Source of the DNA: Anagrus nilaparvatae | Taxonomy: Eukaryota > Arthropoda > Insecta > Hymenoptera > Mymaridae | Direction: 5' to 3' | Assembly (NCBI GenBank): GCA_022575985.1 | Contig: JAKSXM010000040.1 | Span: forward strand, 10,062,001 to 10,126,000 | Length of the DNA stretch: 64,000 nt | In this document: positions 17,058 to 62,487 of the stretch, one piece after another | How positions within the stretch are numbered: position 1 is the stretch's first letter | Layout: every line of letters begins with the position of its first letter | Notes under the pieces: model-generated | Seen by the model: the letters and a program-made list of their open reading frames with translations, nothing else | Database searches by the model: none | What the model was told of the DNA's origin: nothing | Position numbers and translations under genes: made by a program

Positions 17058-17060
17058 AAG

Positions 17061-22769: not shown

Positions 22770-22884
22770 GTGGTTGGTTAATTTATTATTTATATACTTT
22801 ATTATTATTTGTTTTAAAATTTAACTAGCTGACAATGGATAGTGGTTGGTTAATTTATTATTTACATACTTTATTATTATTTTT
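22761..22884 (+). repeat. Tandem duplication of the kuz exon edge
   Basis: CAATGGAT(G/A)GTGGTTGG and the next 30 or so bases (22,761-22,811) recur at 22,833-22,883 with two substitutions. The second copy repeats the exon end and donor-like GTGGTTGG but not the rest of the exon. The phrase AAAATTTAACTAGCTGA is repeated at 22,815 and about 23,300. Confidence 0.8.
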
Positions 22885-36415: not shown

Positions 36416-36815
36416 ACCCATCACCTTCAGGCCTAAATTTGACACATTTTACGCAATTGCAAATTACCCATTTGATTAAATTTCGACCGTTAACGATCCA
36501 AAACTTTTCTCTAGATAGCAATAAAATTAATTGAGTTTCATTATGCAGATGTTTTATATGATAATATGCTGCAATTAACGACGATAAACGAGATTTCTCC
36601 GATAAAATAAACGGAAATTTAGCATTATACGATAAATTTGAGTTTTTTAACCTACCTCCTAGTCTAATACATTGATTGTCTTTATCTAACAGAGGACTAA
36701 GTTTGAGAATCTTGCTAGATCTTTCGATGATTTCATCCCTTTGTAACATTGCATACTCAGTGAAATACCAAGTGGTTTGAGAGTGTTTTACCCAGAATAT
36801 TTCAGAATTTATCAA
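36415..36815 (-). pseudogene. BEL integrase zinc-binding N-terminus
   Basis: The H-H-C-C zinc-binding motif is visible: H and H in YYHIKHLHNETQL, then CNCVKC, followed by FRPEG. BEL homology stops at about 36,420, where R1-B begins, and the catalytic core is 5.5 kb away at 30.9 kb. Confidence 0.8.
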
Positions 36816-37823
36816 GTCGCTGGGTAATAATACATGTGACGAGTAAGGATTTGGTAATTTTTTAACTCTAGTTTTAAGAACATTGATAAATCTTAGACCT
36901 CAAGATGTTATTCTAATTAATTGCATATAACTAGAATATCTACGAATTATAGACCATTCTTGAGGATTCGTGAGATGAAATACGTGAACAACACGCCTTC
37001 TTTCAGATTTATCTAAGACTTCTAGATTTTCAAGATCTGGAGAAATAGCATCGCTGTTATCTGATAAAAATGCAGGCCCTTGCCACCATAACTGAGAAGA
37101 TTTGAGTTCATCAACTGATAGCCCTCTACTAGCTAGATCAGCAGGATTGGAAGTACCTTCGATAAAATGCCATATTGCTTGAGGACAAAGACTTTGGATA
37201 TCTGATATACGATGAGAAACAAACTGAAGCCATAAATGAGGAGAAGACTTTATCCATGATTACGCCACACGGGAATCTGACCATAAATGCACAGAACATT
37301 CAGGAAAATGCATTTCATTTAGAGAATTATTGATGAGTTTACTGAGAAGATGCGCAGCACAGAGTTTGAGTCTAGGTACTGTGAGAACTTTGACGAAAGC
37401 GACTTTTGTTTTAGTTACTAATAGATTGACATATGATACACTGTCTGATATGATTCTGAGATAAATGTTTGCAGCGATAGCTTGCGTAGATGCATCTGAG
37501 AATCCGTGAATTTCGATACGAGAATTTTTATACGAGTTTATCCAACGAGGGATAAATACAGAGTTTACTGATTTCAGTTCTGGCAGAAGATTAAGCCAAT
37601 GATTTTTTAATTCGATAGGCAACTCTTGGTCCCATTCTAACTTTTTGACCCAAAGAGTTCTCATGAAGATTTTGCATCTGATAATAAGAGGAGATAATAA
37701 TTCTAAAGGATCGTACAATTTAGCTATTGAGGATAAAACTTTTCTTTTGTTGATTTTGCTTAGAAAGATAAAGTGTCTAACTTGGGAAGCCAAGTAAGAC
37801 CGAGAAGATTGTGTTCTCCACAC
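36816..37823 (-). pseudogene. BEL RNase H and connecting region
   Basis: From 37,823: SKINKRKVLSSIAKLYDPLE (BEL-specific), LWVKKLEWDQELP, then the RNase H start EIHGFSDASTQAIAANIYLR and VHLWSDSRVA. After the stop at 37,260 the homology continues to about 36,900 (GTSNPADLASRG, LWWQGPAFL) with a stop near 36,900. It degrades the RNA strand in intact elements. Confidence 0.8.
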
Positions 37824-38752
37824 AGCAATTGAGAATCATCTGTGATAGATTGCAACCAATCGATAGGTATATGATTAAGAAGATCAGAATCATTCGAAAG
37901 CCATTTGTGCAACGGAAAACCGCCCGCCATGAGGAGATCTGTTAACTGTTTTGAAGTTGATATGGCTTCGTCTTTGGAGTCTGCGCCAAATAGACAATCG
38001 TCTACATACATATTTTCGAGTAAAATATTGACTATATCTGGATATCTAGATGCTTCATCTGATGCGAGTTGTCTTAAGCACCTGATAGCTTGATAGGCAG
38101 AAGGACCGAGACCATAAGTGACCGTGTTTAACTCGCAAACACTGTTGTCATCAGTAGGTTTAAATCGCCAAATAATGCGTTGAAATTTACGATCATCTGG
38201 ATGAATGAGAACTTGTCGATACATTTTGGCGATGTCAGCTGTATATACATATTTCAACATTCGCCAACAAATGATGATAAAAACGATGTTTGATTGCAAA
38301 GTTGGACCAGTGTGAAGCATCTCGTTGAGAGATACAGAGTTGTAACATCTCATAGAGCCATTGAAAACAGAACGAAATTTACCAGAATGTTGTATGATTC
38401 CATGATGAGGAATGTAAAAAGTATTATTGTCAGAGATAAAAGTAGATAAATTGCTTATGATAGAGAGATGCTTAAGATAATGATACTCGTCGATGAAAGT
38501 GAAATAACTATCATTTAAGGTTTGATTATTTGATAATCTCGATTCTAGCCTACTGAAGGCTCTTTTAGCGATTTCTAAAGAACCTGGAAACTCTAAATTA
38601 GAACTTTTGAATGGGAGCCTAACTATAAATCTCCCTGTCTCGTTTCTAGAATAAGTGGATTGAAAATGTGCTTCGCAGTCTTGTTCATCTTTTGATAAAA
38701 TGATTTGATTACTAGCATAAGGAACAGATTCGATTTCCCAGAATTTTTGCAA
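37760..38752 (-). pseudogene. BEL reverse transcriptase
   Basis: An open 330-codon segment starts QKFWEIESVPYA, the usual BEL pol entry. It has FRSVFNGSMR, motif A (YTADIAKMYRQVLIHPDDR), GLGPSAYQAIRCLRQLA and motif C YVDDCLFGADS, all intact. Its frame ends at 37,760 and continues in another frame as RNase H. On its own this domain looks undamaged. Confidence 0.9.
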
Positions 38753-39260
38753 AGTCTCATTGAGTTAATCATTTAAAGAAGATGTGGCATTGGTGGAGTA
38801 CGAGTTATTTTCATTGTGATCAGAAACGGACTTGCTACAAGAGCCCATAATAATTCAACCGAAAGTAGTCAACTGTGCAATAGGTTCGTCATCAGCACCC
38901 TTAACGAGTCCAGGTAATAAAACTGAAGTGTATAATTCCATGCCTATAATTAATTCAACAGGAATTTTAGAAGAAAATTGTGGATCTGCCAAAGGTAATT
39001 GAGAAAATTGAGCGTCCATTCGGACAAACAAGAAGATGATCTTGGTTCATAAAAGGAAACTTGCCCTAATATGAGAGCTTCTACTGTATAAGAAACATTA
39101 CAATCTAAGCGAGCAGTAATTTTAATTTGTGTTACCCCTTTTGTGCAGGTTTCAATACTACTTACTCCTGTGACTGGTACTTTACATGGTCGCCGAGGTA
39201 GATTTAATAGCTGCACCAGAGATTCAGCAATTAATGAAGCCGTAACAGGAATCGATGAGA
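38753..39260 (-). pseudogene. BEL protease region, broken
   Basis: The aspartic-protease strand ending ALIDS is intact at about 39,256-39,242, but the frame changes immediately after it, so the catalytic loop is followed by unrelated residues and a stop. The normal continuation (LVQLLNLPRRPCKVPVTGVS and on) is found in another frame, 39,216-38,950. Further stops occur before the reverse transcriptase. Confidence 0.7.
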
Positions 39261-40688
39261 GCTCTAGCTTGTATTGATCTCCCGTACCCGTTGGATTCGA
39301 CTTCTACCATTGCAGTTCCAAGTAATGAGAGTGTTTTTTCAGAAACGTGAAGCGAAGTTAGAGAAGCTGTGTTAACACTTGCTGAAGTGTCTGAAGCATC
39401 ATCAGATGATATTATGATGTTGTGAGCAGACAATCCAGAATTGCCATGTGATTGAGCTGGCGATGACAGCGCCTTATGAAGAAAAGTATGATGACGGTTT
39501 TTACACGTTTGGCATACTTTGGAACTCTTACAATCTCGAAGAAGGTGTTTACCTAGGCAGTTATAACAACTATTTAGTTTGCGAACAATTTCAAGTCTTT
39601 TAGTGGGATTGCTAGCTTTGAATTTATTACAATATGAAATATAATGATTATCGTTACATATAAAACATTTAAAATTATTGTTACTATTTTTACTATTTAC
39701 ATTAGCTGTTTGGACAGAAATTGGAAATCTACGACCTGAGTTTTTCTGTTGATTCCTAGAAGACTGATGATTTGTCTCTACTGCAGTTAACGCTGTAAGC
39801 CGGTGCTTTAAGAACGTGCTGAACTCTTCATATGTGGCTGGCTCAGTGGAGTCGCTGGTTTTGTCCTCCCAGTGACGTCTTGTCTCGCTGTCTTTATTGA
39901 TGATGATGGGAACCAGTAAATAATCCCAGCGTTTAGTGGGAGCGCCCATGGATTTCAGTGATTCGAAGTTGTTGGTGACTTCACTTATCAGCCTTTGAAT
40001 TCCAGCAGCAGATTCAGTTTGCAAAGGCTTCAGGTTGAGAAGAGAATCGACGTAAGCATTGATTATTCTTTTTTTGTTCTTGTAGTTATTCACAAGTTTA
40101 TTCCAAATCTCACTCTCGAATTTGCCATCTGAAACGTTAGAAGTTTTAATTAAAGCTAAAGGTTCACCAGAAAGTGCACTTAATAAATAAGTTTTTCTGC
40201 ATCGGTGCGATTAGATTTAAAAATCATTTCGTTGAACAAATTTTGAAAACGCAACCATTGTCTGATGTCTCCATCGAATAATGGTATTGGCAGAGTAGGC
40301 AGCTTTCTCTCATGATTGATCACAGCAGATGAGTCACTAGGTTTGATTGAACTATGAGAAGCAGCATTTTCTTTGAGCTCGATTTTGTGTTTGGCTTCGA
40401 AGTATTCTCCACGTACATCAGCGTATAGCTCTTCTACAGCATCTAAATGAAAATTTTCATCAGTAAAATATTGAAATTTTATATTCTCATTTGTCTTAAG
40501 TTCTTTAATTTCACTATTAGTATTTTGATACTGATCCCAATACTTGTCTGAGATAGTAATAATAGAATGAGTCTTGATTCGATTGCACCAATGGAAAAAT
40601 TTTTCTTTGATAAATAATTTTTAAAAGAGTTTTTGATTTTATTCAAGTTGTCAGTCTGATCTAAGATTAGCTCATTTATGTCAGTCAT
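39224..40688 (-). pseudogene. BEL gag
   Basis: Starts at ATG 40,688 (MTDINELILDQTDNLNKI) and shifts frame before 40,093. It carries the BEL gag signature PLFDGDIRQWLRFQNLF, then from 40,093 the domain ending TYEEFSTFLKHRL. Zinc-knuckle-type Cys/His motifs follow (CFICNDNHYISYCNKF, CYNCLGKHLLRDC, CQTCKNRHHTFLH). The frame ends at 39,224 just inside the protease active-site region. In intact elements gag forms the particle that packages element RNA. Confidence 0.85.
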
Positions 40689-46280: not shown

Positions 46281-46439
46281 AGCTCTTTCCTTAAAATCAA
46301 AAAAATTTCTTTTATTAAGCTTTCTCTAAAAATTTTCTTTTACTAAGCTTCTTCCTGATTTTCAAACAAAATTAAATTTTTCAATTCTGAAGCTTTTTTT
46401 TCTCAAATTAAAAAAAAAGAAGATACTCCTCGAATCTGT

Positions 46440-47130
46440 CTTCGTCCATTTTTGGGACGTTCCAACCCAGGAGGCGCCTCCTGTACGGAGGTCGTTATGA
46501 GGTTCCTTCCAATACCCGGAAGGCGATGTAATGATGATCACTACCATTGTATCATCCATCACCCTCCAGTCGCCTATTCTCCCGGACGCAGCTTCTGTAG
46601 CGAAGATTATGTCCGGGATAGAGGCACCCCAACCTGGGCTCTCGTAGGTGGGCCTGTTGCCTCTATTCTGGACCACTAGTTTGCACCTAGTGGCCATTTC
46701 GAGCACCATTCGTCCCCTGGGGTTAGTCGTTGGCATCCCCCATTCCAGAGTCCTGGCGTTGAAGTCTTCACCAAGGATGACGCCAGCAGTCGCCGTTCGG
46801 ACCGTGCTCTCGATGCTGACCAGCTTTGTAGCCAGCTCTGCCGAGCTGTCGTTTGGGGAGTGATAGCAACTTATGTAAGTTGTTTCCCCGCACTTGGCCC
46901 AAACGTGGCAATTCCCTTTCCCTTGTTGGGTAAGGGACGTTTGGGCTCTGCCGCGAAGCCATATAGGCGCAGCAGCCAGTGTCATCGGAAAGCCAGTACT
47001 TGTGGTTCATGTTGTAATATTGCTCGCTTATTAAAAGGATATTTGCATCCTCTTCGCGAGCAATTTGATCCAACAATGCACCAGCTTCCCGCGCGTGTCG
47101 CATGTTACCTTGGAGAACCTTGATCATTTC
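46440..47130 (-). pseudogene. R1-C ORF2 endonuclease domain
   Basis: Starts near 47,125 (MIKVLQGNMRHAREAGALLD), frameshifts near 46,975, then IWLRGRAQTSLTQQGKGNCH, GEDFNARTLEWGMP (D/E change in the GDxNA motif), SIPDIIFATEAASGRIGDW and a damaged SDH region. It ends near 46,440 at the junction with AT-rich DNA. Confidence 0.75.
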
Positions 47131-47660
47131 CGATGACACCTGCTTCTCGCCACAGCCAGAGCCTCCCGATAACTGGGACAGTTTCCCTCTCCAGGATAGT
47201 GCTTCGTGGAGCACTCATCCTTTCTGGTCTTGCATAGGAAGCACTCAGGCTTATCTTGCTGCACTCTGTCCTCTTATGGCCATCTTCGCCACACTTTAAA
47301 CACGCCTTAGTTCTGTCTGGGCCTTTGCAGACATATTGGCTATGTCCATAGCCTAAATATTTAAGGCTGTCCGCATAGCCTGGTTTTTCAGTATTCCCTG
47401 CACCTGGTGCAGGTAGTGGATGCTGAATATGTTCAAGCAAAACTATGGCTTGAAGTTCCTTACCTGATCCCCCCTGGGTGGAAGATGATGTTAAATCCAC
47501 CTCCATTCAAAATTGTTGGCCCCCCTCAGAATCCATGGGGCCAGTGCCAGGCACCGGGGCTTTCACCCTATCGGAACCGACAGCTGAATTCGACACTTTT
47601 TGAGCAAGTGACTTATCAGCCTGAGGTATATCAGTTTTATCATTTTGCATATTTTTATCG
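47131..47660 (-). pseudogene. R1-C ORF1, internally deleted
   Basis: An N-terminal fragment (47,660 on) and the C-terminal zinc-knuckle part (YLGYGHSQYVCKGPDRTKAC, LKCGEDGHKRTEC) are close together. The Lys-rich middle and conserved ORF1 domain seen in R1-B are missing. Confidence 0.7.
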
Positions 47661-47900: not shown

Positions 47901-48364
47901 TGATATTATTAATGTCAATAGCATTAGTGTATAGTATAATTAAAAATTAAAGCTGCCTTTAGTGACATCTGAATTAGAGGAGATGTATGCCCCGTTCGCA
48001 GATGAAATTTATACGTTGCCATGCATATATATTGACATACATGGGGATGTATCATCATGAATTCATTATGTCTCTGTATAAAAATGTATAATCAAGCACT
48101 TTCATACATGGTCATGTATGGTCATGTATGGCCATGGATAAGAAAAAAATATTAAAAATTTTCTTTTAATATATCCCATGCATACCCATGTATGAGCATG
48201 CACCGGAACTTATTTTTATGAAAAAATGAAAAGAAAAGGCAAAATGGATAATACGCACATGCTTATGCGCGCACATGCGTTATAAAGGTTTTTAGGCTTC
48301 ATCCTATTCGTCTGGGGTCTAAAAAAATTTTTTTGCATAATTTTAAAATTTTTTCTGAATCAGA
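47901..48364. other. AT-rich DNA with ATACATGG repeats
   Basis: Short palindromic phrases such as ATACATGGTCATGTATGG recur around 48,030-48,200. No gene found. Confidence 0.4.
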
Positions 48365-48760
48365 TTTTATTTAGAAAGTTAGATTAATGTATGAAAATTA
48401 AGAATGTTATGAACCGGACACAGAAATTATCCGGTAGACATTTTTGTTGTTGCTATTTTCGCCAAAAATAGGCGTCTTTTGCTATTTTTTCTTGTTTACT
48501 TACAATCTATTTTAATCGATTAAAACTGATGAAAATCTTTAATGTGAATATTTAAAAAGTCTCGCAATTAAAATTGTGCCATTGTGGCGTCAGTTTTAAC
48601 CTAAAAATGACGAAAAACAATTAAAAAATGAAAATTTTAATAATTTAACAAAATGGAAAATACCCACACAAAAAATGAGTACTTCTTGATCATGAATTGC
48701 CCGGTAAAGTAGAAAATTTAAAGAGGCTGACTAAAAATTAGGGCAATTTTTTCAGAAAAT
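48365..48760. repeat. Left arm of an older, diverged inverted repeat
   Basis: Its complement aligns with 60,805-61,170, with many substitutions and small gaps. Anchors are TTTTAATCGATTAAAAT, GCG(C/T)C..TTTGC(T)ATTTTTTC, and TACTTC(T)TGATCA. This arm and its partner lie just outside the 6-bp duplication of the 11.7-kb element, so the element inserted between them. Confidence 0.7.
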
Positions 48761-48779
48761 GAAGTTAGTAGATAGGTAA

Positions 48780-49370
48780 TGTCGATCCTGGCACAGGGGG
48801 TGGGGGAAGGTCACATGGGAGGTCGCATGGTGGGGATTGTCGATCCTGGCACAGGTGGTGGGGGTGAGAGTGGAAGCGGACGTCCCAGGGTATTGATTAT
48901 TTTTTGGCACGTGCAATTGCACGTGATCATATTTGGCGGCCATTTTGCACGCGTGCGTGCGTGAATAAAAAATGGCTGTTGTATTAGAGAGTATTTGTAT
49001 TAGAGAGTATTTTTCAAGATGGCGGACATTTATATTTTTTATTTGAAAATGGCCGCCATTTAATTCATTGTATCGCGTGCATGCGTGCGTGAATCAAATA
49101 TGGCTGCCGTTCAATTGCATTATGTCATATTTGGTAGCCATTTTGCGTGCGTGCGTGGTTAAAATATGGCTGCCATGCATTTGCATGAATCATATTTGGC
49201 GGCCATTTTTTTTGCGTGCGTGCGTGCATGTATAAATTTAATATGACTGCGTGTAGTTGCACAAGCGTATTTTTAAAGATGGCGGCCATTTATATTTTCT
49301 ATTTCAAAATGGTCGCCATATATTTATATTGTAGTGCGTGCGTGCGTGCGTGCGTGAAATTTTTTATTTT
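48780..49370. repeat. Left-arm ATGGC(G/T)GCC / GTGC repeat block
   Basis: About a dozen imperfect units combine (A/T)ATGGC(G/T)GCCAT, in either direction, with GCGTGCGTGCGTG tracts. Mirrored at 59,860-60,455. AAGATGGCGGC (49,014 and 49,276) matches the remembered YY1/Pho consensus; whether it is bound is unknown. The outermost part has two copies of GTCGATCCTGGCACAGG. Confidence 0.75.
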
Positions 49371-49439
49371 TACAGCTATTGTTTTTTTTATTATATATGA
49401 AATTATATTTAGAACAAAAATAATATAACAACGCAATAA

Positions 49440-49795
49440 AAACCGGTATATGACGTCAATGGGAATCCCAAAAAGATGAATCATCATTTTATTTATTTAA
49501 TGCGTAGTTAAAACCGGTTTATGACGTCAATGGGAATCCCAAAAGATGAATCATCATTTTATTTATTTAATGCGTAGTTAAAACCGGTTTATGACGTCAA
49601 TGGGAATCCCAAAAGATGAATCATCATTTTATTTATTTAATGCGTAGTTAAAACCGGTTTATGACGTCAATGGGAATCCCAAAAGATGAATCATCATTTT
49701 ATTTATTTAATGCGTAGTAGAAACTGGTTTATGACGTCAATGTGAATCCCAAAAAGATGAATCATCATTTTATTTACTTAATGCGTAGTAGAAAC
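49440..49795. repeat. Left-arm 70-bp minisatellite with TGACGTCA
   Basis: Five tandem 70-bp units, each AAACCGGTTTATGACGTCAA then GGGAATCCC and GATGAATCATCATTTTATTT. TGACGTCA is the palindromic CRE/ATF site. Homopolymer length differs between units (AAAA or AAAAA). Mirrored on the right arm at 59,443-59,790. Confidence 0.9.
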
Positions 49796-50942
49796 CGATG
49801 TATACCTATTTTTATGAGTGTAATATTATGTACATGATAAGTTACCTGAGCTTGCTTAGGTATCTTAACATGTAGATAATTATAGTATATTAATAATAAA
49901 AAATATTTACATGTATAATAATAAAGTAGTAGTATATGAGTGCACGTGTCTATTATTCTTAATTTGTTACTATATATACATATAAACAGATACATGCACT
50001 CATATACTATAAATATATGTGATCAATTTTTTCCTTATATATGGAACAAAGGTTAAATTTATCACTTGTGAGAGAAAAAAAAAGACGCCCTCTAGTGTTA
50101 TATTTCGTAACTTCCATAAAAATTTTATATTTTTATAAATATAACTATAATTTTTTAATATTAGTTATTTATTTTATATTTTTTTTAATATTTATTGAAA
50201 TTTTAAGGCTATGTCTTCTTTATAATATATTAATTATTTTCTCTGCACCAAATAATATGTTTTTTTTTTTTACTAAACATAACCTTAAAATTCAAGATAT
50301 ATAATATAAAAATATATAAATTCTTTAACATAACCTCAAAATATATAAATTCCTTACATAACCCCTAAAATCTGAATAATTCTTATAATAACCTCAATCA
50401 TTTAATAGTTTTTAGATCATTAACTTAAATTTTGATAGAAATTGTTAAAGTTTAAACATTTTTGAAGTAGAAATAATTTTTTTTTTTTTTTTGCCATAAT
50501 TACCGAATTAATTAATATTCAATTACTAAAATAAAGTAAACAGTTTTACACGGGAAATTTAATTTTAGTTTGAAATAAAAACAGAAATTTATTAAAAAAT
50601 TTTTTTTATTCTTCATGATATTTTAATTAATTTTTCTTCTCTCAAATAATGTATATATGTTTACTAAACATAACCTTAAATTTCAAGGTCATTTAACCAG
50701 AGTACTTTGAAAATATGTACATGGTTGAATGCAAAAATATAGAAAATTGAAATTTCATCTATCACCAACTTTGCTTTTTACGGTTTAAATTATATCAGCT
50801 AAATAATAATAATAATAATAATTTACTATTTTTTAAGAAATTAAAAAACATTTATTGTTGATAAATACATAATTTTTTATTATAAGTCTTATAACATACA
50901 TTATTTTATACATTATTTTTTATAACATTTTTTACAATAAAT
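49796..50942. other. Left-arm non-coding spacer
   Basis: AT-rich and without a protein-like frame. It contains recurring CATAACCT(T/C)AAAAT phrases (50,278-50,400, 50,675). Compared with the right arm it has at least six single-base differences, whereas the coding parts seem unchanged. Confidence 0.55.
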
Positions 50943-51947
50943 TTATAATTTTTTTTTTAATTGTTTAACTTTAGTTTGTCTACATTTGTCAATGATGGAT
51001 TTAATTTCATTTTCATAATTAGTAATTTCAGCTTCTCTCTTGTCTACTAACGATTTCATGCGGTCATCTAACTTGTTAGAATCATCCCTAACATCTTTTG
51101 CTACCTTCTTCTTAAACATATATTGTGACAATCCTTGTCCAGTAGTATTTAAAATTCTGTTTATCCATGCACTTTTTTCCGTTTTATCGTCTCGAAAAGA
51201 TGCATTTGGCTTATATCTCTTCCTGTAAGCATTAGTTGATTTCAGAATTTTTATATAATTCGCTTGATCCTGATCGGTTACATTTGGGCCTGGTAACTTC
51301 TTGAATAAAAGCTCAATCATTCCATCAGTCAAAAAATATTTATCATAATCTAAATTTATGTGATTCTCGTCATCGAAAGAGACATCAGTATTTCCCAAAT
51401 TTATGTTATTCTTGTTATCGAAATAGACTTCAGTATCTCCCACCATGTATGATCCATTTTGTAAGTACCGTACTCCAGTCTTTGTATCCAAATTTTTGTC
51501 TTCATTTTTTAAAAGCATTTGCAAGTATTTATTCACTTTTGATGTTTTTGGTGTGCTAGCTTCTAGGGTTGGATAAATCTTTGATGAATGAGGTGTTTCA
51601 TCATCCATATCATCATTATTTCTTTCGATAACAGTGTCATCTTCATCATCATAATCTATCGCTGATTTAAAATTATCATTGTACAACGATGAAGTATTAT
51701 TTTTCATTTTCTTAACTTTTTTAATATCATATTCGTAGGTATCATCCTGAATACGTCTTTTTCCTGAATTATTATCTATTTCTGACCATTTTCCCAAAAT
51801 TTTTTCTAAAGGTTCTGTTATAGGTTTGAGATTTTCTTTTAATACATCTTCAGCAACCTGTTTACCTAGTTTGTAAGCTAAACTTTTGCGACGTATGGAT
51901 TTTCTTAACTCAGCAATTTGCTGTAACAATAAAGCCTTTTGTTCCAT
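50943..51947 (-). CDS. 334-aa acidic/coiled protein, left-arm copy
   Basis: Intronless. ATG at 51,947 (MEQKALLLQQIAELRKSIRR). The N-terminus (1-60) is helical and basic; residues 90-120 are very acidic (DYDDEDDTVIERNNDDMDDE). Residues 155-265 form the likely folded domain, with an internally repeated phrase (TEVYFDNKNNINL, TDVSFDDENHINL) and then FLTDGMIELLFKKLPGP and ILKSTNAYRKRYKP. It resembles a domain I recall from many insect repeat-borne proteins (labelled DUF8207; unverified). Residues 287-328 match the C-terminus of the 280-aa FLYWCH protein. The tail is KQLKKKL. It is divergent from the 127-aa gene across 348 bp. Function unknown. Confidence 0.85.
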   Translation of the reverse strand: MEQKALLLQQIAELRKSIRRKSLAYKLGKQVAEDVLKENLKPITEPLEKILGKWSEIDNNSGKRRIQDDTYEYDIKKVKKMKNNTSSLYNDNFKSAIDYDDEDDTVIERNNDDMDDETPHSSKIYPTLEASTPKTSKVNKYLQMLLKNEDKNLDTKTGVRYLQNGSYMVGDTEVYFDNKNNINLGNTDVSFDDENHINLDYDKYFLTDGMIELLFKKLPGPNVTDQDQANYIKILKSTNAYRKRYKPNASFRDDKTEKSAWINRILNTTGQGLSQYMFKKKVAKDVRDDSNKLDDRMKSLVDKREAEITNYENEIKSIIDKCRQTKVKQLKKKL

Positions 51948-52295
51948 GTTGAATACTCAACAGTTCAATGCAAACTAAACAATTAGTTTTGAAAACTAAC
52001 ATATTATATGTGAAACTTCAGAAACTATAGTAAATTTGCATAAACTATAGTAAAATTACGAAGTTTGTCGATGATTACCGAAAATTTACGAACTATAGTA
52101 AAATTATAATTTTAATGAACGTTGTATCTAATGAGATCGATATTTAACTAAGATAGGTTAAAAAAAACTTGTGGCGACATCTGTAATTTCTATAAAGGAA
52201 GAAATTTGATATAAAAAAGTCAGTATGTACTTATTTATTGACATGTTCGTTTCTTGTTAAAAAAAAAGAGAGAATTTTAAGGTTATATTTTCAAG
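51948..52295. promoter_or_regulatory. Probable bidirectional promoter, left arm
   Basis: The 348-bp gap between divergent starts holds three copies of AACTATAGTAAA (about 52,024-52,110) and an initiator-like TCAGT at 52,220, 76 bp before the plus-strand ATG. It is identical in outline on the right arm (56,937-57,284). Confidence 0.45.
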
Positions 52296-52679
52296 ATGTC
52301 AATTTACATGTATTATCCACCAGGCACACAAGTTAATGTTGAAATATATGACGACAGCAAGTTCTCCGCAGGAGAAATAAAAACATTTTCTTTTATGCAA
52401 AATTCATGTCTTAATCCGTTTGAATGTATGACATATGACTGTGATCGTCTATGGGTTATTATATTTACCTCGAACAGCATGAAAGACGCAGAGAATTTCG
52501 ATGACATTGATATCGAATTCGTAGATGATGATGCTCATGAAGATGATGACAAAAGATATATTAATCTCACCATCGAAAAAAGGGGAGGAAAAGAAGCAGA
52601 AAAAATCATAATAGGTTCAGATTTTTATGGATATACAAAATTAACTTCGGATGAATGTGATTGTAAAACAAAAATATAA
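52296..52679 (+). CDS. 127-aa acidic protein, left-arm copy
   Basis: ATG at 52,296 (MSIYMYYPPGTQVNVEIYDD). It is followed by a Cys-containing central segment (SFMQNSCLNPFECMTYDCDR), a short hydrophobic strand (LWVIIFT), an acidic run (NFDDIDIEFVDDDAHEDDD) and a C-terminal CDCKTKI. There is no signal peptide or transmembrane helix. Length and alternating strands suggest a small beta-rich fold. AATAAA lies just past the stop (52,683). It is convergent with the 280-aa gene, 417 bp away. I recognise no family. The right-arm copy encodes the same protein. Confidence 0.8.
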   Translation: MSIYMYYPPGTQVNVEIYDDSKFSAGEIKTFSFMQNSCLNPFECMTYDCDRLWVIIFTSNSMKDAENFDDIDIEFVDDDAHEDDDKRYINLTIEKRGGKEAEKIIIGSDFYGYTKLTSDECDCKTKI

Positions 52680-53096
52680 TTTAATAAATTCAATATTGTA
52701 TTTCTTTTTGAAAATTAACTGTAAGATCTTAAATATATTCTATATATGTATAATAGATAATTTTTTAAGTGTATTTTAGGTTAGGTTATTTCAGAATCCA
52801 ATAAAACTCTTGTAAATAATATTTATTTATAAAACATAACCTGAAAATTAAAAAAATCTTTTGCATAACCTCAAAATGTAAACAATCTCCAAAATAACCG
52901 CAAATTTTTTATAATCCTATACAAATTCTTAAAATTTAAATAATTCTCTATATAAAATAAGAAATTTAAAAATTTTAGAATAATTTTGCTTATCTTGAAG
53001 GAAGTTGAATAAGTATAAAACAGTTTATATAATGAAAATATTTTTCTTTATTGAAATAACATTCTTAAACATTTTAAAAGAAAACATGTGATAAGG
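52680..53096. other. Left-arm spacer between convergent genes
   Basis: AT-rich with polyadenylation signals for both genes: AATAAA at 52,683 on plus, and on minus the complement of TTTATT at 53,047-53,052. It also has repeated CATAACCT(G/C)AAAAT phrases. No other gene. Confidence 0.6.
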
Positions 53097-53939
53097 TTAA
53101 TATATAATCTTAGCTGTCCTTAATTCTTCGACTATTAACTTAATTTCATTATCATGTCCAGTAAATCCACGTTTCCTCTCAGCATCTAATACTCTCAGGC
53201 GATTAACAAGTTTATTAGGATCATCCCAATTGTCATAATTGATTGGTGTATCGATGATATCCCTACATGTTGGTGTTGAACTGTGAGCGAAAAGATTTAA
53301 AAAATTTTGATCTGTAGAACTTTTTGAACTTTGATTTTTATTGAATGATTGGTCAGATTCATCGATATTAAAATTTTCATCAGATGAATAATTTTGACTA
53401 TTCTTTAGGTATCTTGTTTTTTTAAATTTATTTCTTCTAGGTTTATTGTTAGTAAATGATGACTCGATCGTGTTTACTCCTATACTTCGAACAGATTTTT
53501 CTGTATTCGTTGCCTTATCACAAAAAGATACTTTTTGCGTATTTGTTGATTTATCAGAGAAAGATTTTTCATCATCAATATGTTTATCATAAATTATTTT
53601 ATTATTAGAATCAAATTCTTCTGCCTCTGGTAATTCTTGAAATCTTGTAGCATTTGTTTCATTGCAATTGCTTGCATATTCATTTTTGAGACAAGAATTT
53701 TTTACTGTAACATCATCTTCAATCTTTTGCGAATTCTTTTTCGCTGTTTTAGGATGATTGTGTGCAACAACTCCAGGAGCTATATAGTTGTCGGTTATTA
53801 AAATTTTTGCCTTGCAAGTTTTTCTCACACACCTCCACGTGACACCCGATCGAATTTTATTATCATAGCGATATATATAATCATTTACTTTTTTGAGAGG
53901 GTTACCCCTCTGACTAACAAGATCTTCCGATGCTAACAT
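53097..53939 (-). CDS. 280-aa FLYWCH zinc-finger protein, left-arm copy (intact)
   Basis: ATG at 53,939 (MLASEDLVSQRGNPLKKVND). Residues 20-62 form a FLYWCH-type zinc finger: YRYDNK, VTWRCVRKTCKAKI, and VAHNH, giving the Cys-Cys-His-His set. FLYWCH domains bind DNA or protein and occur in transcription factors and transposon proteins. The middle (70-230) is low-complexity, Ser/Asn/Lys-rich, with two DKSTNTQK/DKATNTEK repeats. The C-terminal module (238-278, DDPNKLVNRLRVLDAERKR, NEIKLIVEELRTAKI) matches the end of the 334-aa protein. Its start faces the central satellite. Probably a DNA-binding regulator or structural partner; this is inference. Confidence 0.85.
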   Translation of the reverse strand: MLASEDLVSQRGNPLKKVNDYIYRYDNKIRSGVTWRCVRKTCKAKILITDNYIAPGVVAHNHPKTAKKNSQKIEDDVTVKNSCLKNEYASNCNETNATRFQELPEAEEFDSNNKIIYDKHIDDEKSFSDKSTNTQKVSFCDKATNTEKSVRSIGVNTIESSFTNNKPRRNKFKKTRYLKNSQNYSSDENFNIDESDQSFNKNQSSKSSTDQNFLNLFAHSSTPTCRDIIDTPINYDNWDDPNKLVNRLRVLDAERKRGFTGHDNEIKLIVEELRTAKIIY

Positions 53940-54035
53940 CTTGAAATAATACTTGATACTAAAATAAATAAGGCTAGTGTATGATACTATATTAGAAAAC
54001 CAATAACCGTCGGTAAAACTTAGAAATCTTTTTAA

Positions 54036-55199
54036 TCCGCGCAGTTTATATGAAAATCCGCGCAGTTTATGTAAAATCCGCGCAGTTTATATGAAAATCC
54101 GCGCAGTTTATGTAAAATCCGCGCAGTTTAAGTAAAAAGTGGCGCAGTTTATATGAAAATCCGCGCAGTTTATGTAAAATCCGCGCAGTTTATGTAAAAT
54201 CCGCGCAGTTTATATGAAAATCTGCGCAGTTTAAGTAAAAAGTGGCGCAGTTTGGCGCAGTTTAAGTAAAAAGTGGCGCTAACTATATAAAATCGGCGCT
54301 AACTATGTAAAAAGTGGCGCTAACTATATAAAATCGGCGTTAACTATGTAAAAAGTGGCGCTAACTATATAAAAAGTGGTGCTAACTAAATTGCGCCGGT
54401 TTAAGTAAAAAGTGGCGCTAACTATATAAAATCGGCGCTAACTATGTAAAAAGTGGTGCTAACTATATAAAATCGGCGTTAACTATGTAAAAAGTGGCGC
54501 TAACTATATAAAAAGTGGTGCTAACTAAATTGCGCCGGTTTAAGTAAAAAGTGGCGCTAACTATATAAAATCGGCGCTAACTATGTAAAAAGTGGCGCTA
54601 ACTATATAAAATCGGCGCTAACTATGTAAAAAGTGGCGCTAACTATATAAAAAGTGGTGCTAACTAAATTGCGCCGAACTGCGCCACTTTTTACTTAAAC
54701 TGCGCCAAACTGCGCCACTTTTTACTTAAACTGCGCAGATTTTCATATAAACTGCGCGGATTTTACATAAACTGCGCGGATTTTCATATAAACTGCGCCA
54801 CTTTTTACTTAAACCGGCGCAATTTAGTTAGCACCACTTTTTATATAGTTAGCGCCACTTTTTACATAGTTAACGCCGATTTTATATAGTTAGCGCCACT
54901 TTTTACATAGTTAGCGCCGATTTTATATAGTTAGCGCCACTTTTTACTTAAACTGCGCCAAACTGCGCCACTTTTTACTTAAACTGCGCAGATTTTCATA
55001 TAAACTGCGCGGATTTTACATAAACTGCGCGGATTTTACATAAACTGCGCGGATTTTCATATAAACTGCGCCACTTTTTACTTAAACTGCGCAGATTTTC
55101 ATATAAACTGCGCGGATTTTACATAAACTGCGCGGATTTTCATATAAACTGCGCGGATTTTACATAAACTGCGCGGATTTTCATATAAACTGCGCGGAT
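54036..55199. repeat. Central satellite array at the palindrome axis
   Basis: Made of about 20-22-bp units of two types: CCGCGCAGTTTATGTAAAAT and GTGGCGCTAACTATATAAAA. The orientation flips near 54,665-54,675 (AAATTGCGCCGAACTGCGCC). The left part is about 640 bp and the right about 520 bp, with blocks in different order, so the axis itself is not a perfect palindrome. The two FLYWCH genes start on either side, reading away from it. Confidence 0.9.
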
Positions 55200-55294
55200 T
55201 AAAAAGATTTCTAAGTTTTACCGACGGTTATTGGTTTTCTAATATAGTATCATACACTAGCCTTATTTATTTTAGTATCAAGTATTATTTCAAG

Positions 55295-56135
55295 ATGTTA
55301 GCATCGGAAGATCTTGTTAGTCAGAGGGGTAACCCTCTCAAAAAAGTAAATGATTATATATATCGCTATGATAATAAAATTCGATCGGGTGTCACGTGGA
55401 GGTGTGTGAGAAAAACTTGCAAGGCAAAAATTTTAATAACCGACAACTATATAGCTCCTGGAGTTGTTGCACACAATCATCAAAACAGCGAAAAAGAATT
55501 CGCAAAAGATTGAAGATGATGTTACAGTAAAAAATTCTTGTCTCAAAAATGAATATGCAAGCAATTGCAATGAAACAAATGCTACAAGATTTCAAGAATT
55601 ACCAGAGGCAGAAGAATTTGATTCTAATAATAAAATAATTTATGATAAACATATTGATGATGAAAAATCTTTCTCTGATAAATCAACAAATACGCAAAAA
55701 GTATCTTTTTGTGATAAGGCAACGAATACAGAAAAATCTGTTCGAAGTATAGGAGTAAACACGATCGAGTCATCATTTACTAACAATAAACCTAGAAGAA
55801 ATAAATTTAAAAAAACAAGATACCTAAAGAATAGTCAAAATTATTCATCTGATGAAAATTTTAATATCGATGAATCTGACCAATCATTCAATAAAAATCA
55901 AAGTTCAAAAAGTTCTACAGATCAAAATTTTTTAAATCTTTTCGCTCACAGTTCAACACCAACATGTAGGGATATCATCGATACACCAATCAATTATGAC
56001 AATTGGGATGATCCTAATAAACTTGTTAATCGCCTGAGAGTATTAGATGCTGAGAGGAAACGTGGATTTACTGGACATGATAATGAAATTAAGTTAATAG
56101 TCGAAGAATTAAGGACAGCTAAGATTATATATTAA
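55295..56135 (+). pseudogene. 280-aa FLYWCH protein, right-arm copy with 2-bp deletion
   Basis: Mirror copy of 53,097-53,939. Two bases are missing at about 55,480-55,482 relative to the left arm, just after the His-x-His of the finger. The frame started at 55,295 therefore ends after 72 codons (stop at 55,511). The rest of the protein stays open in another frame (to 56,135) and looks unchanged. The truncated product would keep the FLYWCH finger but lose the shared C-terminal module. Confidence 0.9.
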
Positions 56136-56552
56136 CCTTATCACATGTTTTCTTTTAAAATGTTTAAGAATGTTATTTCAATAAAGAAAAATATTTTCAT
56201 TATATAAACTGTTTTATACTTATTCAACTTCCTTCAAGATAAGCAAAATTATTCTAAAATTTTTAAATTTCTTATTTTATATAGAGAATTATTTAAATTT
56301 TAAGAATTTGTATAGGATTATAAAAAATTTGCGGTTATTTTGGAGATTGTTTACATTTTGAGGTTATGCAAAAGATTTTTTTAATTTTCAGGTTATGTTT
56401 TATAAATAAATATTATTTACAAGAGTTTTATTGGATTCTGAAATAACCTAACCTAAAATACACTTAAAAAATTATCTATTATACATATATAGAATATATT
56501 TAAGATCTTACAGTTAATTTTCAAAAAGAAATACAATATTGAATTTATTAAA
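56136..56552. other. Right-arm spacer between convergent genes
   Basis: Mirror of 52,680-53,096, with the same polyadenylation signals. No gene. Confidence 0.6.
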
Positions 56553-56936
56553 TTATATTTTTGTTTTACAATCACATTCATCCGAAGTTAATTTTGTATA
56601 TCCATAAAAATCTGAACCTATTATGATTTTTTCTGCTTCTTTTCCTCCCCTTTTTTCGATGGTGAGATTAATATATCTTTTGTCATCATCTTCATGAGCA
56701 TCATCATCTACGAATTCGATATCAATGTCATCGAAATTCTCTGCGTCTTTCATGCTGTTCGAGGTAAATATAATAACCCATAGACGATCACAGTCATATG
56801 TCATACATTCAAACGGATTAAGACATGAATTTTGCATAAAAGAAAATGTTTTTATTTCTCCTGCGGAGAACTTGCTGTCGTCATATATTTCAACATTAAC
56901 TTGTGTGCCTGGTGGATAATACATGTAAATTGACAT
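56553..56936 (-). CDS. 127-aa acidic protein, right-arm copy
   Basis: Same protein as at 52,296-52,679, with no amino-acid difference seen, in mirrored position. ATG at 56,936. It is divergent from the 334-aa gene at 57,285. Two intact copies per element suggest the protein is under selection or that the arms are homogenised. Family and function unknown. Confidence 0.8.
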   Translation of the reverse strand: MSIYMYYPPGTQVNVEIYDDSKFSAGEIKTFSFMQNSCLNPFECMTYDCDRLWVIIFTSNSMKDAENFDDIDIEFVDDDAHEDDDKRYINLTIEKRGGKEAEKIIIGSDFYGYTKLTSDECDCKTKI

Positions 56937-57284
56937 CTTGAAAATATAACCTTAAAATTCTCTCTTTTTTTTTAACAAGAAACGAACATGTCAATAAATA
57001 AGTACATACTGACTTTTTTATATCAAATTTCTTCCTTTATAGAAATTACAGATGTCGCCACAAGTTTTTTTTAACCTATCTTAGTTAAATATCGATCTCA
57101 TTAGATACAACGTTCATTAAAATTATAATTTTACTATAGTTCGTAAATTTTCGGTAATCATCGACAAACTTCGTAATTTTACTATAGTTTATGCAAATTT
57201 ACTATAGTTTCTGAAGTTTCACATATAATATGTTAGTTTTCAAAACTAATTGTTTAGTTTGCATTGAACTGTTGAGTATTCAAC
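56937..57284. promoter_or_regulatory. Probable bidirectional promoter, right arm
   Basis: Mirror of 51,948-52,295, with three copies of the complement of AACTATAGTAAA at about 57,120-57,210. Confidence 0.45.
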
Positions 57285-58289
57285 ATGGAACAAAAGGCTT
57301 TATTGTTACAGCAAATTGCTGAGTTAAGAAAATCCATACGTCGCAAAAGTTTAGCTTACAAACTAGGTAAACAGGTTGCTGAAGATGTATTAAAAGAAAA
57401 TCTCAAACCTATAACAGAACCTTTAGAAAAAATTTTGGGAAAATGGTCAGAAATAGATAATAATTCAGGAAAAAGACGTATTCAGGATGATACCTACGAA
57501 TATGATATTAAAAAAGTTAAGAAAATGAAAAATAATACTTCATCGTTGTACAATGATAATTTTAAATCAGCGATAGATTATGATGATGAAGATGACACTG
57601 TTATCGAAAGAAATAATGATGATATGGATGATGAAACACCTCATTCATCAAAGATTTATCCAACCCTAGAAGCTAGCACACCAAAAACATCAAAAGTGAA
57701 TAAATACTTGCAAATGCTTTTAAAAAATGAAGACAAAAATTTGGATACAAAGACTGGAGTACGGTACTTACAAAATGGATCATACATGGTGGGAGATACT
57801 GAAGTCTATTTCGATAACAAGAATAACATAAATTTGGGAAATACTGATGTCTCTTTCGATGACGAGAATCACATAAATTTAGATTATGATAAATATTTTT
57901 TGACTGATGGAATGATTGAGCTTTTATTCAAGAAGTTACCAGGCCCAAATGTAACCGATCAGGATCAAGCGAATTATATAAAAATTCTGAAATCAACTAA
58001 TGCTTACAGGAAGAGATATAAGCCAAATGCATCTTTTCGAGACGATAAAACGGAAAAAAGTGCATGGATAAACAGAATTTTAAATACTACTGGACAAGGA
58101 TTGTCACAATATATGTTTAAGAAGAAGGTAGCAAAAGATGTTAGGGATGATTCTAACAAGTTAGATGACCGCATGAAATCGTTAGTAGACAAGAGAGAAG
58201 CTGAAATTACTAATTATGAAAATGAAATTAAATCCATCATTGACAAATGTAGACAAACTAAAGTTAAACAATTAAAAAAAAAATTATAA
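57285..58289 (+). CDS. 334-aa acidic/coiled protein, right-arm copy
   Basis: Same protein as at 50,943-51,947, with no amino-acid difference seen. It has the same ATG context, basic helical N-terminus, acidic 90-120 stretch, FLTDGMIELLFKKLPGP domain core and C-terminal module (RDDSNKLDDRMKSL, NEIKSIIDKCRQTKV). Identity of this 1-kb coding sequence contrasts with the substitutions seen in the spacer downstream (58,290-59,440). Function unknown. Confidence 0.85.
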   Translation: MEQKALLLQQIAELRKSIRRKSLAYKLGKQVAEDVLKENLKPITEPLEKILGKWSEIDNNSGKRRIQDDTYEYDIKKVKKMKNNTSSLYNDNFKSAIDYDDEDDTVIERNNDDMDDETPHSSKIYPTLEASTPKTSKVNKYLQMLLKNEDKNLDTKTGVRYLQNGSYMVGDTEVYFDNKNNINLGNTDVSFDDENHINLDYDKYFLTDGMIELLFKKLPGPNVTDQDQANYIKILKSTNAYRKRYKPNASFRDDKTEKSAWINRILNTTGQGLSQYMFKKKVAKDVRDDSNKLDDRMKSLVDKREAEITNYENEIKSIIDKCRQTKVKQLKKKL

Positions 58290-59442
58290 ATTTATTGTAT
58301 AAAATGTTATAAAAAATAATGTATAAAATAATGTATGTTATAAGACTTATAATAAAAAATTATGTATTTATCAACAATAAATGTTTTTTAATTTCTTAAA
58401 AAATAGTAAATTATTATTATTATTATTATTTAGCTGATATAATTTAAACCGTAAAAAGGAAAGTTGGTGATAGATGAAATTTCAATTTTCTATATTTTTG
58501 CATTCAACCATGTACATTTTTTCAAAGTACTCTGGTTAAATGACCTTGAAATTTAAGGTTATGTTTAGTAAACATATATACATTATTTGAGAGAAGAAAA
58601 ATTAATTAACATATCATGAAGAATAAAAAAAATTTTTTAATAAATTTCTGTTTTTATTTCAAACTAAAATTAAATTTCCCGTGTAAAACTGTTTACTTTA
58701 TTCTAGTAATTAAATATTAATTAATTCGGTAATTATGGCAAAAAAAAAAAATTATTTCTACTTCAAAAATGTTTAAACTTTAACAATTTCTATCAAAATT
58801 TAAGTTAATGATCTAAAAACTATTAAATGATTGAGGTTATTATAAGAATTATTCAGATTTTAGGGGTTATGTAAGGAATTTATATATTTTGAGGTTATGT
58901 TAAAGAATTTATATATTTTTATATTATATATCTTGAATTTTAAGGTTATGTTTAGTAAAAAAAAAAACATATTATTTGGTGCAGAGAAAATAATTAATAT
59001 ATTATAAAGAAGACATAGCCTTAAAATTTCAATAAATATTAAAAAAAATATAAAATAAATAACTAATATTAAAAAATTATAGTTATATTTATAAAAATAT
59101 AAAATTTTTATGGAAGTTACGAAATATAACACTAGAGGGCGTCTTTTTTTTTTCTCTCACAAGTGATAAATTTAACCTTTGTTCCATATATAAGAAAAAA
59201 ATTGATCACATATATTTATAGTATATGAGTGCATGTATCTGTTTATATGTATATATAGTAACAAATTAAGAATAATAGACACGTGCACTCATATACTACT
59301 ACTTTATTATTATACATGTAAATATTTTTTATTATTAATATACTATAATTATCTACATGTTAAGATACCTAAGCAAGCTCAGGTAACTTATCATGTACAT
59401 AATATTACACTCATAAAAATAGGTATACATCGGTTTCTACTA
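58290..59442. other. Right-arm non-coding spacer
   Basis: Mirror of the left-arm spacer with scattered differences, for example near 58,459 (G for C), 58,519 (T for A), 58,612 (C for A), 58,703 and 58,712. No gene. Confidence 0.6.
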
Positions 59443-59790
59443 CGCATTAAGTAAATAAAATGATGATTCATCTTTTTGGGATTCCCATTGACGTCATAAA
59501 CCGGTTTTAACTACGCATTAAATAAATAAAATGATGATTCATCTTTTTGGGATTCCCATTGACGTCATAAACCGGTTTTAACTACGCATTAAATAAATAA
59601 AATGATGATTCATCTTTTTGGGATTCCCATTGACGTCATAAACTGGTTTTAACTACGCATTAAATAAATAAAATGATGATTCATCTTTTTGGGATTCCCA
59701 TTGACGTCATAAACCGGTTTTAACTTCGCATTAAATAAATAAAATGATGATTCATCTTTTTGGGATTCCCATTGACGTCATATACCGGTT
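59443..59790. repeat. Right-arm 70-bp minisatellite with TGACGTCA
   Basis: Five units, the inverse of those at 49,440-49,795. Here every unit has five T in the homopolymer where most left-arm units have four A, so the two arrays have been homogenised separately. Confidence 0.9.
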
Positions 59791-59859
59791 TTTATTGCGT
59801 TGTTATATTATTTTTGTTCTAAATATAATTTCATATATAATAAAAAAAACAATAGCTGT

Positions 59860-60455
59860 AAAAATAAAAAATTTCACGCACGCACGCACGCACGCACTAC
59901 AATATAAATATATGGCGACCATTTTGAAATAGAAAATATAAATGGCCGCCATCTTTAAAAATACGCTTGTGCAACTACACGCAGTCATATTAAATTTATA
60001 CATGCACGCACGCACGCAAAAAAAAAATGGCCGCCAAATATGATTCATGCAAATGCATGGCAGCCATATTTTAACCACGCACGCACGCAAAATGGCTACC
60101 AAATATGACATAATGCAATTGAACGGCAGCCATATTTGATTCACGCACGCATGCACGCGATACAATGAATTAAATGGCGGCCATTTTCAAATAAAAAATA
60201 TAAATGTCCGCCATCTTGAAAAATACTCTCTAATACAAATACTCTCTAATACAACAGCCATTTTTTATTCACGCACGCACGCGTGCAAAATGGCCGCCAA
60301 ATATGATCACGTGCAATTGCACGTGCCAAAAAATAATCAATACCCTGGGACGTCCGCTTCCACTCTCACCCCCACCACCTGTGCCAGGATCGACAATCCC
60401 CACCATGCGACCTCCCATGTGACCTTCCCCCACCCCCTGTGCCAGGATCGACATT
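59860..60455. repeat. Right-arm ATGGC(G/T)GCC / GCAC repeat block
   Basis: Mirror of 48,780-49,370, reaching the element end. Contains TGGCCGCCAT and ACGCACGCACGC tracts. Confidence 0.75.
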
Positions 60456-60472
60456 ACCTATCTACTGAAGTT

Positions 60473-60804
60473 TTTCTTAAGTTTTACGATAACCCAAAAC
60501 CAGCTTTATTTTAATTTCGCGCGATTTTTTCAGTCGGACGTATTTTATTTTCTGATTTTCTCTAATATTTGATGATCTCAAAATTCACAGTTCATAAATC
60601 AGGAGTTCACAGTTTTCAATTTTGGGCATTTTTAAAGATTTTTAAAGATGACGGTGGTGGCAAGAGGATGTGGGGGAAAGGGTAAGGGATTAAAAATGAA
60701 TAAAGCGAAATTTTTATATACCGTATTACTTGTGTAGAAAATAGATAAATACGCTTCAAGTAAAGAAAACGTAAAAATAGATCTTTCTATTTAAATTTCG
60801 CGCT
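60473..60804. other. Loop of the older inverted repeat
   Basis: Lies between the right end of the 11.7-kb element and the right arm of the older inverted repeat. The phrase TTCGCGCGATTTTTTCAGTCGG (60,516 on) is a diverged repeat of 60,799-60,822. A G-rich stretch is at 60,650-60,685. No gene. Confidence 0.5.
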
Positions 60805-61170
60805 AATTTTCAGTCGGCCATTTTGAATTTTTCACTTTTCCGGACTTATTCTTGATCAGGAAGTTACAAGTATTCATTTTTTTGGGTATTTTCATTTTGA
60901 TTAAATATTTAAATTTTCATATTTTTATTGATGTTTAACCTTTTTCAGGCTTAAATTGACTCGAGCATGAATTAATTTGAATTGCGAAACTTTTTTTAAT
61001 ATCCACATTAAACATTTTCAATCGATTAAAATAGGTTATAACTGAACAAGAATTTAAAAACGTGAAAAAATAGCAAAAAGCGCCTATTCTTTGCGAAAAC
61101 AGCAACAAAAAAAAATATTTCGTGGTCTATGTCATAAATTTCTTAATTTTCATACATTAAACTAAATTTC
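60805..61170. repeat. Right arm of the older, diverged inverted repeat
   Basis: Inverted, diverged partner of 48,365-48,760, outside the 6-bp target duplication. Together with the loop it forms an old foldback element of about 1.1 kb that was the insertion target. Confidence 0.7.
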
Positions 61171-61638
61171 TATCCAATAAAATAAAGAAAAAATTGATGG
61201 AGAAAAAATTTCTTGATTTACAAATTTTTTTAATTTCAGCGGACTATAAAATATACAAATATATTCAAAAAAAAACCCCGGCTTAAAAAATTAAAACTCT
61301 TTCTTGATGAATTTTTTTAAGAAACTATATAAAAACTTTGAAAAACTGCATAAATTAGTAAATTGTTATCGTTAATAGTATTTTTAGTATTTTTTAAATA
61401 AGTCCTTACTTCTATTGTTATATTGAGATAAATTCATTTTTTGCCGAAAATAGATTTTTTATAATAAAACTTAGGTTGCATTTTTATTAACATATAAAAG
61501 TAAAAAAATTTAAATAATAGAAAAAAAAAATTAAAAATATGCATTAAAAAAAAAATATAGAAAACACAATTTTTAGTTTTAAAACTATAAAAAATTTAAT
61601 TTTTGATAATTACATTTATTTTAATTAATAAATTTAAC
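61171..61638. other. AT-rich DNA, nothing recognisable
   Basis: No coding frame, RNA gene or notable repeat seen. Confidence 0.5.
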
Positions 61639-61727
61639 GTTCGTCATATTTTTTTCAAATATTAGTATCAATAATTAAACGATCTTTACGAACAAATAAT
61701 AATCTTATATTTCAAAGATACATAAGG
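61639..61727. repeat. Inverted repeat flanking tRNA-like sequences, left copy
   Basis: CGTTCGTCATATTTTTTTCA and the following 70 bases to TTTCAAAGATACATAA are the inverse of 62,079-62,167. The right copy directly abuts the right tRNA-like sequence. Confidence 0.8.
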
Positions 61728-61883
61728 CATTTTCATGCCATTAATTTTATTTAAAATTTTTTACAATTTTAAATAAATTATTAAAAATTTTTTATTGATG
61801 TTAAATAATTTTTTAAGTTAAATTAATTAATAATTTAACTTAAAAAAAGGTTTTTGAATGAAAAATAAAATGTCCATCAACTT

Positions 61884-61972
61884 GCCTCGAGCGGGATGCG
61901 ACCCCACGACCTTCGGTTTTCTACATATAAACCAATGCCGGAACGACGCTCTACCAACTGAGCTATCGAGGG
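61884..61972 (-). tRNA. tRNA-like sequence, 89 nt, isotype unresolved
   Basis: On the minus strand: acceptor CCCTCGA/TCGAGGC (C1-C72 mismatch), TA at 8-9, D arm GCTC..GAGC, T arm GTGGG GTCGCAT CCCGC (G for the usual T at position 54). The total fits a 72-nt tRNA with a 17-nt insert in the anticodon arm. If the insert is an intron at 37/38 the anticodon would be GGC (Ala); the acceptor and D arm look Tyr-like and an embedded TGTAGA resembles a Tyr loop. Probably a pseudogene or tRNA-derived repeat. Confidence 0.5.
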
Positions 61973-62078
61973 CAGACAACCACAAGAGACAATCAGCAAC
62001 ATTTTCTTTTTCATTCAAGGGGCAGCTTTTTAGATCTAGTGCCAAATTTATATTAATTAATAAGTTTAATGAAATCAT

Positions 62079-62167
62079 TATGTATCTTTGAAATATAAGA
62101 TTATTATTTGTTCGTAAAGATCGTTTAATTATTGATACTAATATTTGAAAAAAATATGACGAACGTC
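62079..62167. repeat. Inverted repeat flanking tRNA-like sequences, right copy
   Basis: Inverse of 61,639-61,727, ending two bases before the right tRNA-like sequence. Confidence 0.8.
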
Positions 62168-62169
62168 CG

Positions 62170-62258
62170 CCCTCGATAGCTCAGTTGGTAGAGCGTCGTT
62201 CCGGCATTGGTTTATATGTAGAAAACCGAAGGTCGTGGGGTCGCATCCCGCTCGAGGC
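62170..62258 (+). tRNA. tRNA-like sequence, second identical copy
   Basis: Identical over all 89 nt to the complement of 61,884-61,972. Both share a 3' flank (AAGTTGATGGACATTTT). The same acceptor mismatch, G54 and 17-nt insert are present, so both derive from one already altered tRNA-like unit rather than two independent genes. Confidence 0.5.
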
Positions 62259-62487
62259 AAGTTGATGGACATTTTTAGTCCTGTCGCCCACCATGCTATT
62301 TAATGCCATAAAAGTTCCATGGAAAAAAATGGTTGGCATTTATGTTTTTTGACCCGCTAAACACGAATCCGAAGTCCGTTTTGCAAAATTCGTGGTCAAT
62401 TTTTTGTTATTAACAATTTATTGCAAAATTTGACAACAATCTAAATGTTAAATATCCTGTAGCTAAAACAATTCAAAATTTTGATAA

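Follow-up and report, generated by a model that had tools for sequence, protein, structure and literature searches.

An 11.7-kb palindromic, gene-bearing element with a candidate Polinton-type insertion signature in animal DNA

Results

Structure of the element

The window analysed here, meaning the whole 64-kb stretch of DNA, contains an element that is almost entirely inverted repeat, with copies of three genes in each arm, tandem repeats near both ends and in the centre, and a short direct repeat on either side (Table 1). The first-pass annotation had described two near-identical arms, and this is what we observe: when 48767-54032 is aligned with 55201-60466 in inverted orientation, 5246 of 5273 columns are identical, and when the alignment is carried through the centre, the count is 5735 of 5882. 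The comparison without the centre shows 13 substitutions between the arms and 9 gap events, of which one falls at the cut edge. All 13 substitutions fall within 49505-50932, outside the three genes, and there are none from 50932 to 54032; when 13 substitutions were placed at random 200000 times, a gap this long arose in 31 cases. Such a substitution-free stretch would be expected under selection on the genes, under gene conversion between the arms, or if one arm had been copied to make the other.

Table 1. Coordinates of the element and its features in the 64-kb window
Feature	Position	Strand	Remarks
Whole element	48767-60466		11,700 bp; ends AGTAGATAGG...CCTATCTACT; known from a single copy in the 64-kb window
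Left target-site duplication, GAAGTT	48761..48766	.	7-bp reading: 48760-48766, TGAAGTT
Right target-site duplication, GAAGTT	60467..60472	.	7-bp reading: 60466-60472
Left palindrome arm	48767..54676	+	starts AGTAGATAGG; reaches the orientation switch of the central repeats
Right palindrome arm	54677..60466	-	ends CCTATCTACT
Left subterminal array, five 70-bp tandem repeats	49439..49797	+	five TGACGTCA (CRE-like) octamers
334-aa ORF, left copy	50943..51947	-	no Pfam or PDB sequence match at E up to 1, whole protein
127-aa ORF, left copy	52296..52679	+	no family above cut-off
280-aa FLYWCH zinc-finger protein gene, intact left copy	53097..53939	-	Pfam FLYWCH, E 2e-08
Central array, ~20/21-bp repeats of two kinds	54032..55200	.	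cores GCGCAGTTTA and GGCGCTAACTA
FLYWCH gene, right copy	55295..56135	+	2 bp shorter, frameshifted; first frame FLYWCH E 1.1e-08
127-aa ORF, exact right copy	56553..56936	-	
334-aa ORF, exact right copy	57285..58289	+	
Right subterminal array, five 71-bp tandem repeats	59431..59792	-	five TGACGTCA octamers

The palindrome has a single switch point, which lies inside a tandem array. The orientation of the central repeats flips once, near 54676, so that matched units run one way on the left and the opposite way on the right, and the unit counts are unequal (12+18 on the left versus 7+6+13 on the right). The innermost inverted pair in the element, among the 25 longest of 80, joins 54538-54676 to 54815-54953 across 138 nt. 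Toward the ends, the subterminal units hold 10 of the 11 TGACGTCA octamers in the window, where 100 shuffles gave a mean of 0.37 and a maximum of 4, and GTGCGTGCGTG occurs 14 times in the element and 0 times in the remaining window. Eight motifs (CRE, YY1-, E-box- and E2F-like sites and a GTGCGTG run) were tried in the left 1.3 kb, and six of the eight exceeded the maximum of 200 shuffles. GATGGC (2 seen; shuffle mean 0.53, maximum 3) and TTTGGCGC (0 occurrences) were not enriched there. From their sequence, one might guess at CRE-like regulation or protein binding at the subterminal octamers.

The element is bounded by AGTAG/CTACT inverted ends, in keeping with the AG...CT termini noted earlier, and the perfect 6-bp direct repeat GAAGTT, also noted earlier, adjoins them on both sides. 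By chance, a 6-mer match at two random flank positions arose in 18 of 20000 draws. However, a T stands both at 48760, before the left GAAGTT, and at 60466, as the last base of the element, so that a 7-bp TGAAGTT can also be read. Under the 7-bp reading the terminal A on the left is unpaired and the inverted ends are uneven by one base, and we use the 6-bp reading because the inverted ends are then symmetric. The first six bases of the element, AGTAGA, agree at 5/6 positions with (AGT)2, a motif given for vertebrate Maverick elements in PMC8097293. Within AGTAGA, AG recurs at a 3-base offset, which is what a "jumping-back" start would need (PMC8097293). No further copy of the element was found elsewhere in the 64-kb window by blastn at E 1e-3, and a 21-base terminal pattern had 0 matches in a viral contig collection, which covers viruses and not insects.

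Genes of the element

The first-pass annotation had counted three genes per arm, and this stands for the genes of 334 and 127 aa, each present as two exact copies, but not for the FLYWCH gene, whose right copy is without the 2 bp seen on the left at 53751-53752 and is thereby divided into two frames. The naming of a FLYWCH protein was correct, and the FLYWCH zinc finger is the sole Pfam family among the three ORFs. In 300 shuffled versions of the arm, the longest ORF had a median of 72 aa and never exceeded 132 aa, against 334 aa in the arm itself, so the ORF lengths exceed chance. Past the stop codons of the 334-, 127- and 280-aa ORFs, the first AATAAA stands at an offset of 61, 3 and 44, respectively. 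The 334-aa gene also contains a 45-bp internal duplication (86% matches) at 51352-51442, found at 57790-57880 in the right copy.

Solved structures gave no match to the 334-aa protein at E up to 1 or to the FLYWCH protein at E up to 0.1, and the lone structure row for the 127-aa protein, at E 0.45, was disregarded. Single-sequence structure models were unusable, with mean pLDDT of 40.3 and 44.7. Pfam rows under the cut-off (DUF4476, NUC153, DUF3573, DUF7688, Med21 and Pox_A21) were likewise disregarded. A suspected resemblance to insect "DUF8207" proteins, in the 334-aa protein and in the C-terminus of the FLYWCH protein, was not supported: pieces of both gave no such Pfam row at E up to 10, in a Pfam copy that may be without that model. 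Pattern-matching stretches encoded no relative of the 334-aa protein (45 in viral contigs and 136 in prokaryotic/genome contigs), of the FLYWCH protein (15 in viral contigs) or of the 127-aa protein (19 in viral contigs). The collections searched hold viruses and prokaryotes, and these negatives say little on insects.

The earlier reading had no Polinton core genes in the element, and the Pfam scan agrees, in that FLYWCH was the only family above the cut-off when 16 of 16 frames of at least 60 aa were scanned. These were the stop-to-stop frames overlapping the left arm and centre, of which three were scanned as ATG-started genes at E up to 1 (the 334-aa gene via its identical right copy) and 13 stop-to-stop at E up to 0.1; four right-arm frames, out of a larger number, were also scanned. 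In the frames of the left arm and centre, Pfam recognised none of the polymerase B, integrase, ATPase, protease and capsid families, in a scan run without a positive control for a divergent Polinton protein. There was also no transposase family match in the frames scanned with Pfam, and the same would be expected for a non-autonomous copy. As core genes were not recognised, we do not file the element as an autonomous Polinton; it may operate by Polinton enzymes in trans.

Surroundings of the element

The window is animal DNA, because it contains an ADAM10 (kuzbanian-like) cysteine-rich exon at 22422-22781 (Pfam E 3.3e-22; six PDB sequences matched, all ADAM10). The animal is probably an insect. 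This exon is the one clear piece of a host gene that we saw, among retroelement remains. Remains of a BEL/Pao retrotransposon occupy several frames at 36354-40620, with Peptidase_A17 and DUF1759 above the cut-off and RVT_1 and Integrase_H2C2 below it. Related non-LTR retrotransposon stretches lie at 31100-35978 and 46362-47506 (68% alike over 603 columns), with endonuclease matches in both and reverse transcriptase in the former, the latter being partial. Frames at 17026-18558 look Penelope-like by eye and have no Pfam match at E up to 0.01. Closer by, an inverted repeat flanks the element on both sides (48364-48749 and 60793-61183, 72% alike), and it is probably an older transposon into whose interior the element inserted. 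To the right of the element, at 61637-62275, two inverted repeats, 89 and 111 bp long and 100% and 99% complementary, are interleaved with each other.

Discussion

On the 6-bp reading, the element resembles Polinton/Maverick elements in its duplication, and its inverted ends, at 5 of 6 bases, come close to the AGT type. According to PMC8097293, vertebrate Mavericks have (AG)3 or (AGT)2 ends and 6-bp duplications, the end repeats permitting the jumping-back step of protein-primed replication, and a Polinton target-site duplication of 6 bp is also given in PMC10045372. The element differs in its length of 11.7 kb, against 15-20 kb for Polintons/Mavericks (PMC4028283). The Tlr elements of Tetrahymena are, like the element, without the Polinton polymerase, but they encode integrase, ATPase and capsid proteins, none of which we recognised; that they are non-autonomous Polinton derivatives was the suggestion of an earlier paper and is disputed in PMC4028283. 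Drosophila-associated adintoviruses (13.3-14.6 kb) share with the element an arthropod association and a similar size class, whereas one adintovirus has homologues of polymerase B, integrase, capsid, protease and FtsK, none of them recognised here (PMC8363768). A further difference from Polintons/Mavericks is that the inverted repeat is almost the whole element, with core and capsid genes not recognised.

Palindromic defective derivatives of protein-primed linear DNAs, such as those of adenovirus and yeast linear plasmids, are inverted dimers of one terminus. These derivatives are episomal, whereas the element is an integrated copy between direct repeats. The term "inverted duplication" was not met among the matches listed on protein-primed palindromes in a largely open-access literature.

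The insertion signature points to Polinton-type integration, less firmly given the 7-bp reading of the direct repeat. We infer the integrase use, the replication mode and the parent of the element, and the earlier proposal that it may use a Polinton integrase would rest on the repeat length and the end bases. The explanation that we tentatively favour, and which is quite possibly correct, is that the element is palindromic and non-autonomous, derived from a linear replicon of Polinton type or living as its satellite, and mobilised in trans. No new class is needed for these observations, since an inverted duplication of one Polinton end would explain them equally. Protein-primed synthesis would have begun at an end of a larger, Polinton-like linear DNA and, close to the central array, changed strand or folded back, so that the product was an inverted dimer of the end first copied. 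Both termini of this dimer would then bear one and the same origin and integrase-recognition sequence, and because of this a full element could supply the polymerase, the terminal-protein function and the integrase in trans to have it copied and integrated. The three genes that it kept would be accessory genes from near the end of the parent. The fold-back model would explain together the two arms, the genes that they carry, the one change of orientation and the scar of insertion. Under this model, a parent Polinton should exist in which the three genes lie beside one end.

In favour of the fold-back model are the direct repeat adjoining exactly ending inverted arms, the AGTAGA end, a duplication of the Polinton length, the absence of recognised core genes and the single switch of orientation in the centre. 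The substitution-free stretch also counts for it, since such a stretch is expected if the arms were homogenised or copied from one another. Against it, the end bases and repeat length are a short signature, with the repeat readable as 7 bp, none of the three proteins has a Polinton-specific match, and a single copy carries the whole case, with no parent Polinton seen and no second copy in the window. In addition, if packaging matters, 11.7 kb is outside the range of vertebrate Mavericks, given as ~17 kb plus or minus 10% in PMC8097293.

Foremost among the alternatives, albeit unlikely, is an independent old satellite family in which the palindrome and three-gene set were kept by selection while living on Polinton enzymes. 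The intact 334- and 127-aa genes, exact in both arms, would fit this, as would ORFs far above shuffles, the ten TGACGTCA sites of the subterminal arrays and the two kinds of unit in the central array. However, a young insertion also fits intact genes, the right FLYWCH copy is frameshifted, and no relative was found in the collections searched, which cover viruses and prokaryotes and not insects. Next, and in our view unlikely too, comes a non-autonomous element with long TIRs from some other superfamily of DNA transposons (Galileo/Foldback-like, IS3EU-like or undescribed), in which the TIR has taken over the interior. Galileo has long, internally repeated TIRs, as does the element, and according to PMC3573991 its longest-TIR copies are without transposase and non-autonomous, its TIRs grow by recruitment of the interior and through internal tandem repeats, and its duplications are 7 bp, the length to which the direct repeat can also be read. 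That reading makes the inverted ends uneven by one base, however, and Galileo TIRs reach about 1.26 kb versus more than 5 kb here (PMC3573991). IS3EU and GingerRoot were considered for their 6-bp duplications and rejected, as their ends are mostly TA..TA (occasionally TG..CA in GingerRoot) versus AG..CT here (PMC10045372).

A self-sufficient new element, with one of the uncharacterised proteins as a recombinase or replication protein and FLYWCH as the DNA binder, is improbable. The 334- and 127-aa proteins do have no Pfam family above the cut-off and no solved structure beyond the E 0.45 row, but an absent match is weak evidence, and with structure models as poor as those obtained (mean pLDDT 40.3 and 44.7), nothing points to an enzyme. 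Least probable is an assembly or fold-back read artefact in which one arm was read twice. Hairpin reads are known to yield palindromes of such size, and the size here would fit such a product. However, the mirrored stretch ends exactly at the direct repeat, with unlike sequence beyond; 13 substitutions and 9 gap events separate the arms, whose central unit counts are also unequal; and the flanking inverted repeat, at 72% alike, has diverged much further than the arms have.

Protein-primed linear DNA, with both ends serving as origins, is the presumed replicating form of Polintons, and we know of little direct evidence of Polinton replication intermediates in animals. If the fold-back model is true, then the element, as an inverted dimer of one end that became integrated, would be a fossil both of protein-primed replication and of mobilisation by a Polinton integrase in trans. 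More doubtfully, there could be a class of palindromic, gene-bearing polintovirus satellites in insects, with one origin/integration end at both termini and their own FLYWCH regulator and two uncharacterised proteins, perhaps packaged and spread by a helper Polinton, which they would parasitise in the manner of virophages. As a fossil of the kind described, the element would make protein-primed replication and mobilisation in trans testable.
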